Positions 4,182 to 11,850 of a stretch of 64,000 nt of DNA are shown piece by piece. The DNA lies in NCBI GenBank assembly GCA_004292515.1, contig RDXB01000031.1, forward strand, positions 1-64,000, in the 5' to 3' direction. A program made the position numbers and the translations under genes. The stretch's first letter is position 1. Each line of letters begins with the position of its first letter. Under the pieces are notes generated by a model, which searched no databases, had not been told where the DNA came from, and worked only from the letters and a program-made list of their open reading frames with translations. Source of the DNA: Oscillatoriales cyanobacterium. GTDB taxonomy: Bacteria; Cyanobacteriota; Cyanobacteriia; CACIAM-69d.

Positions 4182-4241
4182 ATGTTGTCTTTACGTCGGT
4201 TGGCGGGCATTGCCCACCCTACTCCCTGCAAATAGCCCCAA

Positions 4242-4292
4242 GACTCGCCCAAAAAACTTGCCCAAAAACTTGCCCAAAAACTTTGCACAAAC
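4242..4292 (+). promoter_or_regulatory. Four tandem 12-13-bp repeats upstream of the sigma-like gene
   Basis: The unit ACTTGCCCAAAAA occurs as ACTCGCCCAAAAA, ACTTGCCCAAAAA, CTTGCCCAAAAA and CTTTGCACAAAC in direct tandem. It ends 24 bp before the GTG start at 4317. The spacing and directness resemble a multi-site operator. The regulator is unknown and function is inferred from position only; it could equally be simple slippage. Confidence 0.4.
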
Positions 4293-4316: not shown

Positions 4317-5111
4317 GTGATCGCGGCCCAGTTGCCGACATTCAACAGGTTTCGATTTGCCGTGGCCGGATATACCTTTCAACCTCCACCTCCCCAGCGA
4401 CCTGACCCCGATCGCGATCAGGCGATTGATGCCACGCTCAAGGCACTCGTTTTGCAAGCGCAGTCCCTCCCGATCGATAGCCCAGATCATCAGATCCTAA
4501 TCGGTGAAATTATTGCCACGCTTTATGAGTCGGGTCGGTTATTACGCAACCTCAAAACTAGCAAGGTATACCCCGACCACTATCGCTATCGGGAATTTTA
4601 TGACCAAGCCATTTTCCTCCTATTTAGTTGGCTCGCCCAGTCGATTCGACAGCGGCAGTATGATCCCCAAAAAGGGGAAGTCTTAGCTTGGGTCAACAAA
4701 AAGCTGCAATTCCTATTTATTGATGCAGTGACGGATTTGACAGGTATCAAAACACCCTACGCCACTGGAGTTGATATCGAAAATATCGATGATTATAAAC
4801 TGGGTAGCCAAGCAGATCCGATGGATCAGTTAATAGACCTAGAGATGCTGAATTGGTCAGCACTTTGGCAAGCCTATCAAGAGGCTGATCCAGATGGAAT
4901 TCTAAACAAGCGCGTCACTGGATCGATCACATTTCAACAACTCCTAAATGCCAAGATTGAGCGCAAAAGTATGCGAGAACTCGGTGAAGAGCTAGGCGAA
5001 AACTGTCACACCCTAGGTTCAGTCTTTGGTCGATATAAACCTAAATTCATGGCATCTTTCCGACGATTCTGCCAAGAACAAGGGCAAGACATTAGTGAAA
5101 TTAGCAACTAA
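4317..5111 (+). CDS. Sigma-70-like protein of the DUF1822-linked type
   Basis: 264 aa, GTG start. The N-terminal part (LLFSWLAQSIRQRQYDPQKG, VLAWVNKKLQFLFIDAV, residues ~100-140) resembles region 2 of sigma-70-like proteins (R-x-Y-x-P through V-W-x-N). The C-terminal part (SITFQQLLNAKIERKSMREL, GEELGENCHTLGSVFGRYKP, ~200-250) looks like a helix-turn-helix region 4. From family knowledge, such divergent sigma-like genes often precede DUF1822 and CHAT/CHASE2 genes in cyanobacteria. Here the DUF1822 gene starts 22 bp downstream. Predicted cytoplasmic transcription regulator; no anti-sigma is adjacent. AT-richer than its neighbours upstream. Confidence 0.7.
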   Translation: MIAAQLPTFNRFRFAVAGYTFQPPPPQRPDPDRDQAIDATLKALVLQAQSLPIDSPDHQILIGEIIATLYESGRLLRNLKTSKVYPDHYRYREFYDQAIFLLFSWLAQSIRQRQYDPQKGEVLAWVNKKLQFLFIDAVTDLTGIKTPYATGVDIENIDDYKLGSQADPMDQLIDLEMLNWSALWQAYQEADPDGILNKRVTGSITFQQLLNAKIERKSMRELGEELGENCHTLGSVFGRYKPKFMASFRRFCQEQGQDISEISN

Positions 5112-5133
5112 GTTATTTGTGGCTCAACCAATC

Positions 5134-6156
5134 ATGACATCGACTGATCACCAAACCCGGAATTTGAACATATTCAATCGCCCACCCAAGATTGCCTTGC
5201 GTGCTACCCACATTAAGCTGGCCCAACACTTTGCAGAGAGTGCTCAAAATAATCAGCAACGGGATTCGATCTACCACAACACCTTGGCCATCTTGGCGAT
5301 CAGTGATTGGCTGACCTGGTTGGATATTCCGCATACACATCATGGTTGTGATAGCTGGGATTCCACGGCTCGGTGGTTTGATGATGTGGCAGATCTCACC
5401 CTCTACGGGTTGGGGCGCATTGAATGCCGACCGATCTTGCCAGGGGATTCGGTGATGAAAATTCCCGTTGAATCCCAGGGCGCTCGCACGGGCTATTGGG
5501 CGATCGGGTTGGATTTGGCAGGTGATTGTGCAATGTTATTGGGGTTTTTGCCCGCTGAATGGGTGGGCGATCGCGACCAAGTTTCCCTAGATGAGTTGGA
5601 AGACGTAGGAGCCTTTCTGCATTGGTGTCGCGATCAGCAATTGCGAGTTGATGTGAACCTGGCAGATGCAATTCAACTCGGTGATTGGTTAGTCGAAAAG
5701 TTTGATCATGGGTGGCAAAAACTCAGCACCCTACTCAATGAATTGGTAGACCCTACAGAACTTTCCCTCAACTATCGCCGTAACACCGGTATGACTGGGG
5801 CGCGTGTGGTTGAAATGGGGGGCGATCGGATTCAGGCGATCCTGAGTGTTGCGATGAATTTGGCAGAAAGCGAAGAAATCGAAAGTGAAGAAACCGAAAG
5901 CGAAGAAACCGAAAGCGAAGAATATGAATGGGACATCACGATTCGCCTGCAACATCGCAATCCTGATTTGATGTTGCCTAATGATCTCAAATTAGCCGTT
6001 TTTGATGTTGTGGGGCGAGAAACAATTGTGGTTTATCCCACGGATCATACGAATTTGCAAGTCAGTTTTACGGCCGAACCTGGAGAAGGATTTCAAGTGC
6101 AATTAAGTTGGGAGGGCCAAACCCTTGCCGAAACCTTAGTAGCACCCATTGCGTAG
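5134..6156 (+). CDS. DUF1822 family protein
   Basis: Cyanobacterial family of unknown function, 340 aa. ATG 5134 was chosen because it lies just after the stop of the sigma-like gene; the open frame upstream of it overlaps that gene. There is no signal peptide or membrane segment. A Glu/Ser/Thr repeat (ESEETESEETESEEYEW) sits at about residues 250-268 and is encoded by near-perfect 15-nt repeats. It is followed by a beta-rich C-terminal domain. It is probably in one operon with the sigma-like gene and perhaps with the TPS exoprotein 82-139 bp downstream. The role is unknown; the co-occurrence suggests regulation or sensing for the CHAT partner. Confidence 0.75.
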   Translation: MTSTDHQTRNLNIFNRPPKIALRATHIKLAQHFAESAQNNQQRDSIYHNTLAILAISDWLTWLDIPHTHHGCDSWDSTARWFDDVADLTLYGLGRIECRPILPGDSVMKIPVESQGARTGYWAIGLDLAGDCAMLLGFLPAEWVGDRDQVSLDELEDVGAFLHWCRDQQLRVDVNLADAIQLGDWLVEKFDHGWQKLSTLLNELVDPTELSLNYRRNTGMTGARVVEMGGDRIQAILSVAMNLAESEEIESEETESEETESEEYEWDITIRLQHRNPDLMLPNDLKLAVFDVVGRETIVVYPTDHTNLQVSFTAEPGEGFQVQLSWEGQTLAETLVAPIA

Positions 6157-6238
6157 TTATGTAGTGTTGTGAGTAGGGTTATGAAGGCGGAGTCATCATC
6201 TACTAAAATGCCTTTGGCATCCGTCAGGGGAACGCATC

Positions 6239-9200
6239 TTGGGGTCTTTTCCGCAACAGTGGTACGCTAGCCAGCCCAGCACAATCACTCACCCAATGAC
6301 CTGGTCGATCCTGGCGATCGCATTGGCGACGCCCGTTGGCCCGGCGATCGCGAATCCGGTGTCTGATGGTTCCCTGTCCACAGAGGTGGCGCAACCGGCG
6401 GTGAATCGCTGGACGATCGAAGGGGGCGATCGGGCCGGGAGCAACTTATTCCACAGTTTTCAGCAGTTTTCGATTCCCACGGGGGGCAGCGTCCACTTCA
6501 ACAACGCTGCGGATGTGGCCAATATTTTTTCGCGAGTGACGGGTGGGCAACGATCGACCATTGACGGCGAACTCAGCGCCAATGGTGGGGCGAATCTGTT
6601 TTTGTTGAACCCGGCGGGGATTTTGTTTGGGCCGAATGCGCGGCTGAATTTGGGTGGGTCGTTTTTTGCGAGCACGGCTGATCGCCTGGTGTTTGCGGAT
6701 GGGCTGAGTTTTGGGGTCAACGATGCGGCGGGTCGGCCGTTGCTGTCGATGACTGTGCCGGTGGGGTTGCAGTATGGGGCCGCGCCGGGGCCAATTCGGG
6801 TGGAGGCGCGATCGACCGATCCAACTGCGACCGTTCCCACTGGGCTGGAGGTGAAACCGGGTCAGGCGATCGGCTTGTTTGGTGGGTCTTTGGCGTTTGA
6901 CCAGGGTTGGGCGATCGCGCCGGAGGGTCGGATTTGGGCGGTGGCGGCGGGGCCGGGAACGGTGGTGAATTTCAACCGCTTGCTGGATACGCCGATCGCG
7001 CTGGGTGCGAACCTGACGTTCCAAGGGGGCGGGCTAGCGGTCAGCGGCAATGGTGGCGGGGAGTTGGTGGCGATCGGCGATCGGGTGCAACTGAGTCAGG
7101 GGGCGCTGTTGGCGGCGAACACCTTGGACACGGGGGACGGTCGGGGGCTGTGGGTGCGATCGGGGGAGTTTGGGCTAACGGATCGATCGGCGGTTTCTAC
7201 GATTACGTTGGGCAGTGGTCGGAGTGGCGATTTAAGTCTCACGGCCGAGCGATCGATCAGTTTATCCAGTGGGCAAGACTTTGCTGCTGTTATCAACCAA
7301 TTACTGAATAACCAATTTACGGAAAATAGTATTGAAGGGGGCTTGTTTTCCGTCAGCTTAGGGACTGGAAATGCTGGACAAATTAATTTAATTTCAGAGG
7401 ATCTGATCCTGAGCAATGGTTCAGTGATTGTTTCATCAACTTTTAACTCCGGTCGCGGCGGTGATGTCGTGATCAATGCGACCAGAACCGTTCGGCTGAG
7501 TCGCGCTGGTCTTTTTTCAGGAACAGCCGGATCGGGGCGATCAGGTGATCTGATCAGTCGATCCAGATATTTTGAACTAGTCAATACGGGAGCTGTGTCC
7601 TCGCTAACGCTGTCTAATGGCCCAGCAGGCAATATTGACATTGAAGCATCGGACTCAATAACCCTGATTGGTGGTGATCTTATCCCATTAAATATTGGAA
7701 ATTTTCGATCTGATACTAAAGGTGGTATTGAAGCCTCTGCATTTTTAGGTGGAAGTGCCGCAGGAGGAATTCAGTTAACCAGTCCTTCAATATCATTAGA
7801 TGATGTTACGGTAGTCTCTACTTCAGTTGATTTTCCTGGCAGAAATTCTAGTATTGGCACGCCTGGTGATATCAATCTCAATTCTGCTCAAATTTTGATT
7901 AGAAATGGAGCAGCGATCTCAGCTGGACGTCTTGTCCAATCTTCCTCGACTGAAATTAATGACCCTATGAGTTCTACGCAAAACGGAAGAGTAGTCATTA
8001 ATTCCACAGAATTAGTTGAGGTAGATGGAGATTATCGCGATAGGCCTAGCCAGGTAAGTTCTAGTATTGAAGTTAGTTATTTCTCTGATGGCATCGATGG
8101 TTCAGATAGCAATTCTAATGCTTCCTTTAATGCTGGAACAATTGAAATTTTTACAAGAGTCATGAGAGTGATTAGAGGTGGACAAATTCAAAGCACTACA
8201 TCCACAGTTGTTGATCCTAAAATTGAGCAATTTTCAATACTAGGCAATGGTGGAAATATTCTAATTTCTGCTAGTGAAAGAATCGAATTAGATCACTTGC
8301 GATCCTATCAGCTCAATGAACCACTCGGGCCAGCTGGTTTGTTCACAAGCACTAATTTTACTACGGTCGATGGGCAAGGAATTGATCCGGTATCTCTGTT
8401 CCCTTCGGGTCGAGCAGGGAATATTCAGGTCATAACACCTGAATTGCTCTTGCGAAATGGAGCACGAATCACTGCTAGTAGCTTTGGCACAGGTGGCGCA
8501 GGTAATATCGATATTCAAGCGAATCGGATTCGGATCATTGGCGAAAATAGCGCGATTCGATCGCTCTCTGGGGCGGGCGACGCGGGCAACATTCGGATTC
8601 AAGCCAATGAAATTGAACTGCGCGATGGCGGCACAATCACCACCGATGCATTCTTCACCGCAACCGGCGGCAACATTGAAATTGATACTGACACCCTGGC
8701 AGCCCTCGGCAATAGCGACATTTCCGCCAATGCCGTCACCAACTTTGGCGGGCGGGTGAATTTGCGCGCTCAAGGCGTATTTGGCACAGCGTTTCGGAAT
8801 GCGCCGACCGATCGCAGTGATATCACCGTCAGCTCGGCGCGGGGGCCCGAGTTTAGCGGCACGGTGCAACTGGAAGTGCTGAACCCCAACCCAGCCCAAG
8901 GGGCGATCGCCCTGCCCAGTAACGTAGGTGTGCCGCCGGAGCCGGCCCAAACCTGTGGCCCCGTCGATCGCCCCGAGCAAATTGGCTTTTTCCCGTTGGG
9001 GCGCGCCGGTCGGCAACCCACACCCCTGGAACCAGCGGCGATCGAGAATGGCAATTTTTGGGCCGACTTGCGACCGATCGCCCCCAGCACCACCGCAACC
9101 ACACCGCTACCCGCGATCGCCGCCGCCCCCGTGGAAGCCACCGGCTGGCAAACCGGGGAAGACGGCCGGCTAGAACTGGTGGCCGTTGGGGCGGCTCCCG

Positions 9201-9256
9201 TGACAGTGGGGCAACCGATCGAAGGGCGCATCTGTCGGCCGGGGAGTGCAAGATGA
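6239..9256 (+). CDS. Two-partner-secretion exoprotein (filamentous haemagglutinin N-terminal domain)
   Basis: 1005 aa if TTG 6239 (AGGGGAA 7 nt upstream) is the start, 986 aa if ATG 6296 (MTWSILAIALATPVG). A signal peptide ends near AIA|NPVSDG. The TPS/haemagglutinin activity domain spans about residues 45-170 (NLFHSFQQFSIPTGGSVHF, ANLFLLNPAGILFGPNARL). Then come many short beta-helix repeats with GGNI/AGNI/SGDL turns, and a C-terminal Cys-containing domain (AQTCGPVDRPEQIGFFPLG). From family knowledge, such proteins cross the outer membrane through a TpsB/FhaC barrel. None is in this window. The stop overlaps the start of the CHAT gene (ATGA). The middle third is markedly AT-richer than both ends. 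Confidence 0.88.
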   Translation: MGSFPQQWYASQPSTITHPMTWSILAIALATPVGPAIANPVSDGSLSTEVAQPAVNRWTIEGGDRAGSNLFHSFQQFSIPTGGSVHFNNAADVANIFSRVTGGQRSTIDGELSANGGANLFLLNPAGILFGPNARLNLGGSFFASTADRLVFADGLSFGVNDAAGRPLLSMTVPVGLQYGAAPGPIRVEARSTDPTATVPTGLEVKPGQAIGLFGGSLAFDQGWAIAPEGRIWAVAAGPGTVVNFNRLLDTPIALGANLTFQGGGLAVSGNGGGELVAIGDRVQLSQGALLAANTLDTGDGRGLWVRSGEFGLTDRSAVSTITLGSGRSGDLSLTAERSISLSSGQDFAAVINQLLNNQFTENSIEGGLFSVSLGTGNAGQINLISEDLILSNGSVIVSSTFNSGRGGDVVINATRTVRLSRAGLFSGTAGSGRSGDLISRSRYFELVNTGAVSSLTLSNGPAGNIDIEASDSITLIGGDLIPLNIGNFRSDTKGGIEASAFLGGSAAGGIQLTSPSISLDDVTVVSTSVDFPGRNSSIGTPGDINLNSAQILIRNGAAISAGRLVQSSSTEINDPMSSTQNGRVVINSTELVEVDGDYRDRPSQVSSSIEVSYFSDGIDGSDSNSNASFNAGTIEIFTRVMRVIRGGQIQSTTSTVVDPKIEQFSILGNGGNILISASERIELDHLRSYQLNEPLGPAGLFTSTNFTTVDGQGIDPVSLFPSGRAGNIQVITPELLLRNGARITASSFGTGGAGNIDIQANRIRIIGENSAIRSLSGAGDAGNIRIQANEIELRDGGTITTDAFFTATGGNIEIDTDTLAALGNSDISANAVTNFGGRVNLRAQGVFGTAFRNAPTDRSDITVSSARGPEFSGTVQLEVLNPNPAQGAIALPSNVGVPPEPAQTCGPVDRPEQIGFFPLGRAGRQPTPLEPAAIENGNFWADLRPIAPSTTATTPLPAIAAAPVEATGWQTGEDGRLELVAVGAAPVTVGQPIEGRICRPGSAR

Positions 9257-11850
9257 ATGCTCGTGGGTCGCGGCGGTGGTTTTTGGGGCTGTTGGGTTGG
9301 GGCGGCGCGATCGCCCTGGCCGGTTGGGGTGAGCACACGGGGGCGATCGAAACCGTGGCGATCGAAGCTGACCCGGCGATCGAGCAGGGCCGCCAAGCCT
9401 ATCGGGCCGGTCGCTATGCCGAGGCGATCGCCCTTTGGCAACCGGCGGCGGCCCGGGCCGAACAACGGGCTGATCGATCGCTGATCATTTTGTTGGCGGC
9501 CTATTTGGCTTGGGCGCAGTTGCAGGCGGGTGATCCAAACCAAGCGGCGGCGGCGGTGGCCCGTGGCCAGGCCCAACGGACGGGGACGATCGGCCCGGCC
9601 TTGGAAGCGCGGCTCTGGGGGGCGATCGGGGCAGTGGCGGCGGCCCAGGGCGACTGGTCGGCGGCGGCGGCGGCCTACGATCGCGCGGCCGATCGCTACC
9701 GATTGGCCAACGACCCGGTGGGGGAACTAGCCAGCCAGCTCGACCAGGCCAGCGTTTGGCAAGGGGCCGGCAGCACTCGCCGGGCCTTGGAACGGCTTCA
9801 GGCCTTGGCGGCCACTTGGCTGGAGCCGCCCCAAGAGCTGGCCGAAGCGGAAGTTCGGGCTTTGGGGTTGCATCGGTTGGCGATCACGCTGGCTTGGGCG
9901 GGCGATCGCGATCGGGCCTTGGCGGTGGTTCAGGAAGCGGCTTCGGAGTTACCCGCGGCCCGCTTGACCCTGGCGCGGTTGGTGGCCGAAATGGCGATCG
10001 CCGCGCCATCCCCCGAACAGCAGGCCGAGTTGGCCGAGCAGGCGATCGTCTACTACGACAGCTTGGCCCAAGCACCGGATCAGTCCCTTCAGCGATCAGC
10101 CTTGGTCAGTTGGTTGGCCCTGGCGATCGCGCGGCCCAATTCAGAAACGGCGGCCCTGATCGATCGCACCTTGGCCGCCGCCCGCCACTGGACAGGCGGC
10201 CGATCGGCGATCGCCCAGCAATTGGCCGTTACCCAATCACTTTTGAGTCATGCCTCCTGGCCCGATGCGGGGCGATCGCTGATTGAACAGGCCCGGGAAC
10301 AGGCGCGACAACTGGGCGATCGGCCCCTGCTGGCCCTCGCGGAACAACAGTGGGGGGCAGCGGTCGCCCGCCAAGGTCGCTGGGAGGCAGCAGCCCAGGC
10401 CACCAACCAAGCGATCCTGATTCTGGAGCCAATGCAGCGGCCCGAATGGAGCTATCAAGCCCTTTGGCAACTGGGGCAGATCGAAACCCGGCGAGCCAAC
10501 GGGGCCGGGGCGATCGCCGCCTACGGAGCCGCCGCCCTGGCCGCCGACCAAGCTCGCCAGGGATTGACGGGCCTGACGTTGCGGTTGCCGGAGTTGCCGA
10601 TTACGGGGCCGCGCGACTGGCTCGATCGCACGGAACCGCTCTACCGGCAGCAGATGGGGGCGTTGCTGGCTTCGGCGAATTTCGACCATTGGCAATTGGC
10701 GGGTCAGCAGTTGCAAGGGTTGCAACTCCAGCGGATTGAAAATGTGCTGCAATGTCGGCTCGATCGGCCCACGCCGCAAGAATTGCAAGATTTGGCGCGA
10801 TCGACCGTGGGGGAACGGGTGGCCACGGTGGTGATGGCGGTGACGGAATCCGTAAACGACCCAGGGCAATGGTCGATCGATACGGTGGTGCGCTGGCCCG
10901 AGGCCGGCAGCGCGGGGGGCGAGGCCGTGCGGCAACATCGCCAGCCGGTGGCGCGGGCGGAGTTGCGGGCCTTGCTCGATCGACTGGTGGCCAACCTGGC
11001 CGATGTGAGCGAGGAGCAACTGGTGCGCCGCGACGGGAAACAACTCTACCGCTGGACGATCGCCCCCTATCGATCGGTGCTGGCGGCGGCGGGGGTGACG
11101 TTGTTGGCCCTGGTGCTCGATCCGAACTTGCGGAACATTCCGATCGATGCGCTGTTTGATGGTCAGCGCTATTTAGTGGAGTCCTTTGCGGTGGCGATCG
11201 CGCCGGATGTGAAGTTGGCGGCAGCTTCGGACAGGGCGCGATCGGGGCCAGTGTTGTTGGCGGGGTTGGCCCAGGGGCGATCGAACTTGCCAGCCTTGCC
11301 GCTCGTGCCCCAACAGTTGACCAAGCTGCAACAACTGCTGGGCGGTGTGGTGCTCCTAGACGATCGCTTCACCCAACGGGCGCTGGAGTCGAAGTTGGTG
11401 AATGAGCCGATTTCGATTTTGCATTTGGCAACCCACGGGCAGTTCAGTTCCGATCGCCGAGACACATTTTTGCAAACTTGGGATCAGCGGTTGGATGCCG
11501 ATCGGTTGGATCAAGTCTTGAGCCAACGCCAAGCTCGGCGACCGGAGCCGTTGGATTTGTTGGCGATGTCGGCCTGTCAAACGGCCAAGGGCGATCGCTA
11601 CGGGGCGTTGGGGATGGCGGGGATGGCCGTGCGGGCGGGGGCGCGCAGTCTGATTTCGGCGCTCTGGAAAATCCCGGCAGACAACACGCCCGACCAGCTT
11701 TTTGAGGCGTTTTATCGGGCTTGGTTGGGGGGTGCTTCCAAGGCACGAGCACTGCAACAGGCGAAAGTGGCGATGTTGCGCGATCGGGCGGCGGGGCGAT
11801 CGGGCCCGCACTTTTGGGGTGGGTTTGTCTTGATCGGCGATTGGCGCTAA
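9253..11850 (+). CDS. TPR-CHAT caspase-like protein with Tat-like signal
   Basis: 865 aa. The start overlaps the TPS gene stop (ATGA 9253-9256), implying translational coupling. The N-terminus MNARGSRRWFLGLLGWGG has SRRWFLG followed by a hydrophobic run, a good match to a twin-arginine signal. Residues ~45-500 are Ala-rich TPR-like helices (GRQAYRAGRYAEAIALWQPA). The C-terminal CHAT domain (about 590-865) keeps the His of LHLATHGQF and the Cys of LLAMSACQTA, the His-Cys dyad of caspase-like peptidases, and ends HFWGGFVLIGDWR. Inference: an exported protease working with the co-translated exoprotein. The substrate is unknown. Confidence 0.88.
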   Translation: MNARGSRRWFLGLLGWGGAIALAGWGEHTGAIETVAIEADPAIEQGRQAYRAGRYAEAIALWQPAAARAEQRADRSLIILLAAYLAWAQLQAGDPNQAAAAVARGQAQRTGTIGPALEARLWGAIGAVAAAQGDWSAAAAAYDRAADRYRLANDPVGELASQLDQASVWQGAGSTRRALERLQALAATWLEPPQELAEAEVRALGLHRLAITLAWAGDRDRALAVVQEAASELPAARLTLARLVAEMAIAAPSPEQQAELAEQAIVYYDSLAQAPDQSLQRSALVSWLALAIARPNSETAALIDRTLAAARHWTGGRSAIAQQLAVTQSLLSHASWPDAGRSLIEQAREQARQLGDRPLLALAEQQWGAAVARQGRWEAAAQATNQAILILEPMQRPEWSYQALWQLGQIETRRANGAGAIAAYGAAALAADQARQGLTGLTLRLPELPITGPRDWLDRTEPLYRQQMGALLASANFDHWQLAGQQLQGLQLQRIENVLQCRLDRPTPQELQDLARSTVGERVATVVMAVTESVNDPGQWSIDTVVRWPEAGSAGGEAVRQHRQPVARAELRALLDRLVANLADVSEEQLVRRDGKQLYRWTIAPYRSVLAAAGVTLLALVLDPNLRNIPIDALFDGQRYLVESFAVAIAPDVKLAAASDRARSGPVLLAGLAQGRSNLPALPLVPQQLTKLQQLLGGVVLLDDRFTQRALESKLVNEPISILHLATHGQFSSDRRDTFLQTWDQRLDADRLDQVLSQRQARRPEPLDLLAMSACQTAKGDRYGALGMAGMAVRAGARSLISALWKIPADNTPDQLFEAFYRAWLGGASKARALQQAKVAMLRDRAAGRSGPHFWGGFVLIGDWR

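Follow-up and report, generated by a model that had tools for sequence, protein, structure and literature searches.

What unites a putative sigma-like regulator, a DUF1822 protein, an exoprotein of the two-partner-secretion (TPS) type and a caspase-like CHAT protein encoded in one row of genes, and what might such a set do for a cyanobacterium? The question is raised by a locus in the window analysed here, the first 64,000 nucleotides of contig RDXB01000031.1 from an Oscillatoriales cyanobacterium, whose own genome (G000) comprises 3.98 Mb in 111 contigs.

Organization of the window locus

A sequence-only reading had described four co-directional genes with short gaps and an ATGA overlap, preceded by tandem repeats, and all of these were recovered on the plus strand. 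The features are listed below; G001 and G002 are two genomes of the same genus.

4235-4291, +: direct repeats of 12-13 bp (GCCCAAAAACTT), upstream of the sigma-like gene
4317-5111, +: sigma-like protein (window-type 'sig' family), 264 aa; open reading frame with an HTH-like C-terminal end
5134-6156, +: DUF1822 protein, 340 aa (PF08852, E 9.5e-36, profile positions 1-369 of 370)
6239-9256, +: TpsA-type exoprotein of two-partner secretion, up to 1005 aa (PF05860, E 3.7e-50; TIGR01901, E 2e-25)
6356-6952, +: TPS secretion domain of the exoprotein
7199-8638, +: variable passenger middle of the exoprotein, AT-rich, diverged from G002 while both ends are conserved
8639-9256, +: conserved C-terminal part of the exoprotein, with a C...F..GRxG motif starting at 8954
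9253-11850, +: TPR-CHAT caspase-like protein, 865 aa (PF12770, E 8e-49), predicted to be exported
9253-9345, +: twin-arginine-type export signal of the CHAT protein (MNARGSRRWFLGLLGWGGAIALAGWG), recognized by its sequence and kept in G001 and G002
11029-11841, +: CHAT domain, with the dyad His728 (codon 11434-11436) and Cys775 (codon 11575-11577)

The sigma-like and DUF1822 genes are separated by 22 bp, and the exoprotein gene follows after 82 or 139 bp, depending on whether it starts at TTG 6239 or ATG 6296. Its stop codon and the CHAT start share the ATGA at 9253-9256, a 4-bp overlap that points to translational coupling. The interval 6156-6296, where a transcription stop had been named as an observation that would count against a joint system, yielded no terminator-like site, and over the whole region such sites were no commoner than in shuffled sequence. 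The upstream repeats were not seen 5' of the same gene in G002. Within the DUF1822 gene, a 15-bp tandem repeat (5866-5922) encodes an acidic ESEET repeat that is species-specific, being absent from relatives. No CHASE2/EACC2-type gene was found in the window neighbourhood and a DUF928 gene is likewise missing from the window; the CHASE2-type and DUF928-type genes of G000 lie on other contigs (C30 and C40).

Linkage of the module across cyanobacteria

Absence of linkage between the first two and the last two genes had been proposed as a reason to abandon the system; what we found instead is that the order recurs. G002 carries sig, DUF1822, TPS and CHAT genes in succession, with a convergent DUF928 gene, and G001 carries sig, DUF1822 and two TPS genes up to a contig break, followed by a TPS 3' end and CHAT. 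This order is kept in both genomes although their proteins are only 45-53% identical to those of the window.

Across the class, 39 loci were defined around the top relatives of the CHAT N-terminus and compared with 20 control regions from the same genome set, placed ~400 kb from DUF1822 loci. TPS genes were present near CHAT relatives in 23 of the 39 loci (Fisher p 2.6e-6), FhaC in 12 (p 0.0035) and CHASE2 and DUF928 in 18 each (both p 9.6e-5), against 0/20 controls in every case, in locus samples that are biased towards near relatives of the query and do not count as independent draws. A single control region held a weak TPR-only match. At CHAT loci, co-occurrence above chance was seen for these four families, but not for DUF1822 (4/39 against 0/20, Fisher p 0.18); the regulator pair is therefore an optional part of the module. 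Immediately upstream of TPR-CHAT genes, TPS, FhaC or a fused TPS was encountered in 21 of 45 cases, and about half of the TPR-CHAT genes had no TPS, FhaC or DUF1822 directly upstream.

A further set of 80 named loci, the nearest relatives of the Gloeocapsopsis CHAT, included TPS in 48, CHASE2 in 47, DUF928 in 45, DUF1822 in 25, sigma types in 16 and FhaC in 10. In Gloeocapsopsis crepidinum LEGE 06123 every part lies within about 12 kb, and most parts are present in Calothrix PCC 7103, Calothrix PCC 7716, Nostoc calcicola and others. DUF1822 occurs together with TPS and CHAT in many named genomes, several loci place two or three TPS genes beside CHAT, and the full set elsewhere includes CHASE2 and DUF928 genes. 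On plasmids of Planktothrix agardhii, Nostoc ATCC 53789 and Pseudanabaena ABRG5-3, independent annotation agrees on these neighbourhoods. Linkage of the module is beyond chance, and chance adjacency was rejected, given its recurrence across cyanobacteria and the empty control regions. Judged by gene order and protein families, the four window genes are a compact form of a conserved cyanobacterial module.

Variants of the set were also recorded. Plasmid pNsp_b of Nostoc sp. ATCC 53789, typed as conjugative, carries sigma, DUF1822 and CHAT genes in the vicinity of genes for lanthipeptides, two genes of the caspase family and a TPS gene, and plasmid p1 of Planktothrix agardhii groups an FHA-type TPS, ShlB/FhaC, CHAT, DUF928, CHASE2 and an AAA-like gene adjoining transposases. 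At four loci (L167, L169, L174 and L178), a shorter CHAT of about 470 aa stands beside sigma, DUF1822, CHASE2 and DUF928 genes without TPS; this form groups with TPS-CHAT fusions in the CHAT tree. Outside cyanobacteria, CHAT relatives match 47 Pseudosulfitobacter and 5 Shinella plasmid records.

The sigma-like/DUF1822 pair

A sigma-type gene was found in 40 of 40 DUF1822-centred loci, 33 of them with a Sigma70_r4-type family (a label taken from the members tested) and eight with the window type, one locus having both. These loci also contained CHASE2 (21), CHAT (12), DUF928 (11) and TPS (4). The 12/40 frequency of CHAT contrasts with 0/20 controls (p 0.004); the pairing of sigma and DUF1822 genes beside caspase-like genes is already published (PMC8195603). 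A second sig-DUF1822 pair of G000, on contig C102, stands alone without TPS or CHAT.

In position, the window-type sig corresponds to the sigma-70-region-4 proteins of other DUF1822 loci, and it has an HTH-like end. Its proposed sigma-like identity draws on this gene position and on weak fold matches; the window protein has no Pfam match even at E 1. The best Foldseek match of its predicted structure (pLDDT 78.7) was WhiG (E 0.16), a profile match to the ECF factor SigE reached E 0.97, and when the two sigma-type families were compared as profiles, the alignment was confined to the HTH end and was not significant. From gene position and these weak matches, the sigma-like label is plausible. 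DUF1822 is described in the literature as a TPR protein; Foldseek of our low-confidence model (pLDDT 67.8) gave no clear fold match, and searches with both models returned nothing below E 0.001.

An exchangeable middle in the exoprotein

Comparison with G002 divides the window exoprotein into three parts, with 59-89% identity over residues 1-240, 21-32% over 241-800 and 49-81% over 801-1005; the CHAT proteins of the two loci are 53% identical overall. The passenger middle has a GC content of 38-52%, compared with 60-68% on either side of it within the gene; no HIP1 site occurs over 7250-8530.

More closely related strain pairs display a similar pattern at the DNA level. Between Desmonostoc geniculatum and Nostoc calcicola, identity is 88-99%, falls to about 50% over ~2 kb inside the TPS gene and returns to 79-100%, while the sigma, DUF1822, CHASE2, DUF928 and CHAT proteins are 92-97% identical. 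Conversely, the N. calcicola passenger recurs at 84% identity in Anabaena lutea, where CHAT identity is only 77%. Among pairs with CHAT identity of at least 80%, the middle was far more divergent than both ends in six of eight, counted over pairs that overlap; passenger exchange was absent from some strain pairs, and two pairs showed variation in a neighbouring TPS gene as well.

In G001, two tandem TPS genes (L312, contig C24, 3443-8581; L313, contig C16, 5087-5890) lie between DUF1822 and CHAT, with alike N-termini and different middles, the contig break falling inside the second. The first is of the G002 type (88% overall), and the middle of the second is of the window type, identity being 84-94% over the roughly 250 aa that follow the shared start and declining thereafter. 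In these comparisons, the exoprotein middle behaves as an exchangeable cassette within an otherwise constant module.

The CHAT protein and its fusions to TPS

The His-Cys dyad positions are intact in all 80 aligned CHAT domains, and the N-terminal half of the TPR-CHAT family is TPR-like. By a simple hydropathy test, 49 of 51 TPR-CHAT proteins begin with a signal-like hydrophobic segment, and one of the two exceptions is cut by a contig end. The proposal of an exported Tat-type CHAT protease thus held for the export-type N-terminus and the intact dyad and has to be narrowed for the pathway: the twin-arginine motif of the window protein (SRRWFLG) is conserved in both same-genus relatives, but this form is mostly a trait of the genus, seen in its three members and one other, whereas other relatives look Sec-like.

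TPS and CHAT are also joined in single open frames. Two such fusions occur in G000, one of 1698 aa on contig C24 (L024, 5829-10925) and one of 827 aa on contig C13 (L025, 13092-15575), the latter without the TPS C-terminal motif. In a quick tree, fusions fall in at least three separate CHAT lineages. In the three TPR-type fusions, the TPS C-terminal motif is retained and precedes the TPR part, as would result from a joining of the two genes.

Candidate FhaC partners

The sequence-only reading had noted no TpsB/FhaC transporter. None is indeed local to the window TpsA, but G000 encodes two ShlB/FhaC proteins on other contigs, together with six TPS matches, 12 CHAT and two DUF1822; TPS and CHAT are found together on the small contigs C50 and C79. 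FhaC is present in 33 of 33 TPS-bearing genomes searched and was not found in the TPS-free genome G018. Loci of other species place the FhaC gene next to TPS and CHAT or between them.

Proposed function and alternative readings

Starting from architecture, linkage, fusions, export-type N-termini, an intact dyad and cassette replacement, all established at the sequence level, we give about an even chance to a two-partner-secretion system served by a dedicated caspase-like protease outside the cytoplasm, which would mature, release or be displayed with a polymorphic exoprotein. TpsA would first reach the periplasm; from there, one of the two FhaC-type barrels whose genes lie on other contigs would presumably carry the window protein across the outer membrane. 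The translationally coupled TPR-CHAT cysteine protease, with its export signal, would act outside the cytoplasm, and we infer that its target is TpsA or lies at the same surface site; binding of the exoprotein or of an envelope partner would most likely fall to the TPR part, and cutting of the exoprotein to CHAT. Such cleavage would mature or release the surface protein on cue, like periplasmic LapG acting on CdrA. We consider the sigma-like/DUF1822 pair the most likely regulator of the operon. If the middle is a recombining cassette, binding by the surface protein would therefore vary between strains, the variable middle probably meeting a changing partner, while the secretion and protease parts remain constant.

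The main rival is a conflict, kin-recognition or cell-death system, in which CHAT would be the effector or executioner, the polymorphic exoprotein would provide recognition, and CHASE2 (EACC2/caspase-like), DUF928, DUF1822 and sigma would form the signalling arm. It holds this place because ECF sigma and DUF1822 genes have been described adjoining EACC2-caspase genes in proposed conflict systems (PMC8195603). The CHASE2 proteins of related loci carry a CHAT-like region (their alignment for catalytic residues was uninformative), the exoprotein varies while the machinery is constant, and one plasmid locus lies near caspase-family genes. Nevertheless, no recurrent immunity gene was noticed, the CHAT protein is predicted to be exported rather than cytoplasmic, and the window is without CHASE2 and DUF928. 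PADLOC profiles match none of the four window proteins, and known anti-phage defence systems were rejected on that ground. We regard this reading as somewhat unlikely.

A related possibility, which we judge unlikely, is a recognition-and-response system in which the exoprotein with its swappable middle would be the outer sensor or display, the exported protease the responder, and a sigma-DUF1822 arm (with CHASE2 and DUF928 where present) the link to gene expression. Its use would lie in recognizing kin or non-self or in surveillance of the envelope. Less probable still is that the exoprotein serves adhesion or a surface layer and that its passenger changes in step with substrates or to evade phages, CHAT being a housekeeping protease for quality control or turnover. 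Most studied TpsA proteins are adhesins (PMC5422565), and the exchange of passengers and the tandem TPS genes are consistent with antigenic variation; this explanation, however, does not account for the recurrence of a specific CHAT, also fused to TPS, instead of a general protease. That the two gene pairs are mere neighbours without a common function is very improbable, for although pairs are also found apart, as on C102, their order persists in G001 and G002 at low protein identity, CHAT is enriched at DUF1822 loci and many named genomes combine DUF1822, TPS and CHAT.

Comparison with known systems

The favoured TPS-protease system shares with type Vb secretion (FHA/FhaC) the N-terminal TPS domain, a long beta-rich passenger and an FhaC/ShlB protein in the genome, or in relatives in the locus; it differs in having a caspase-like protease gene in the operon or fused. 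LapG-CdrA of Pseudomonas aeruginosa also combines an exported cysteine protease, which is not known to be a CHAT protein, with a TPS adhesin. LepA, in the LepA/LepB system, belongs to another protease class. A 2017 review states that TPS operons appear to lack genes for maturation proteases and that periplasmic LapG releases the TPS adhesin CdrA (PMC5422565); regulated release in the window module is a proposed analogy drawn from sequence. LepA leaves the cell by two-partner secretion, as TPS-CHAT fusions would (PMC5422565), whereas the window protease is a separate exported protein.

An ECF sigma factor, sigma-VreI, drives the PdtA/PdtB TPS locus (PMC7035377); the sigma assignment in the window is putative, and the window has DUF1822 and no VreR- or VreA-like gene was seen there. 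EACC2-caspase systems likewise have a sigma-type gene and DUF1822, often with CHASE2 proteins, and the paper describing them does not mention hemagglutinin (PMC8195603); the window, in contrast, has TPS and a putatively exported TPR-CHAT in place of an EACC2/CHASE2 gene. Contact-dependent inhibition (CdiA/CdiB) resembles the locus in its TPS exoprotein with a variable segment, but was rejected: the variable part of the window protein is the middle, the C-terminus is conserved, CHAT follows directly, and no C-terminal toxin or immunity gene follows.

Significance

A literature search whose scope was open-access papers found no report of TPS-CHAT linkage, of the fusions or of the whole set, and nothing joining the CHAT domain with two-partner secretion, with hemagglutinin and cyanobacteria, or with CHASE2. 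If the favoured reading is true, two-partner secretion would gain a dedicated, operon-encoded protease, contrary to the 2017 review (PMC5422565), and caspase-like CHAT proteases would be placed outside the cytoplasm. DUF1822 and DUF928 proteins, for which only two and one open-access papers, respectively, were found, would also be placed in a context. The cassette-like exoprotein would make cyanobacterial strain recognition testable by swapping one gene segment between laboratory strains.
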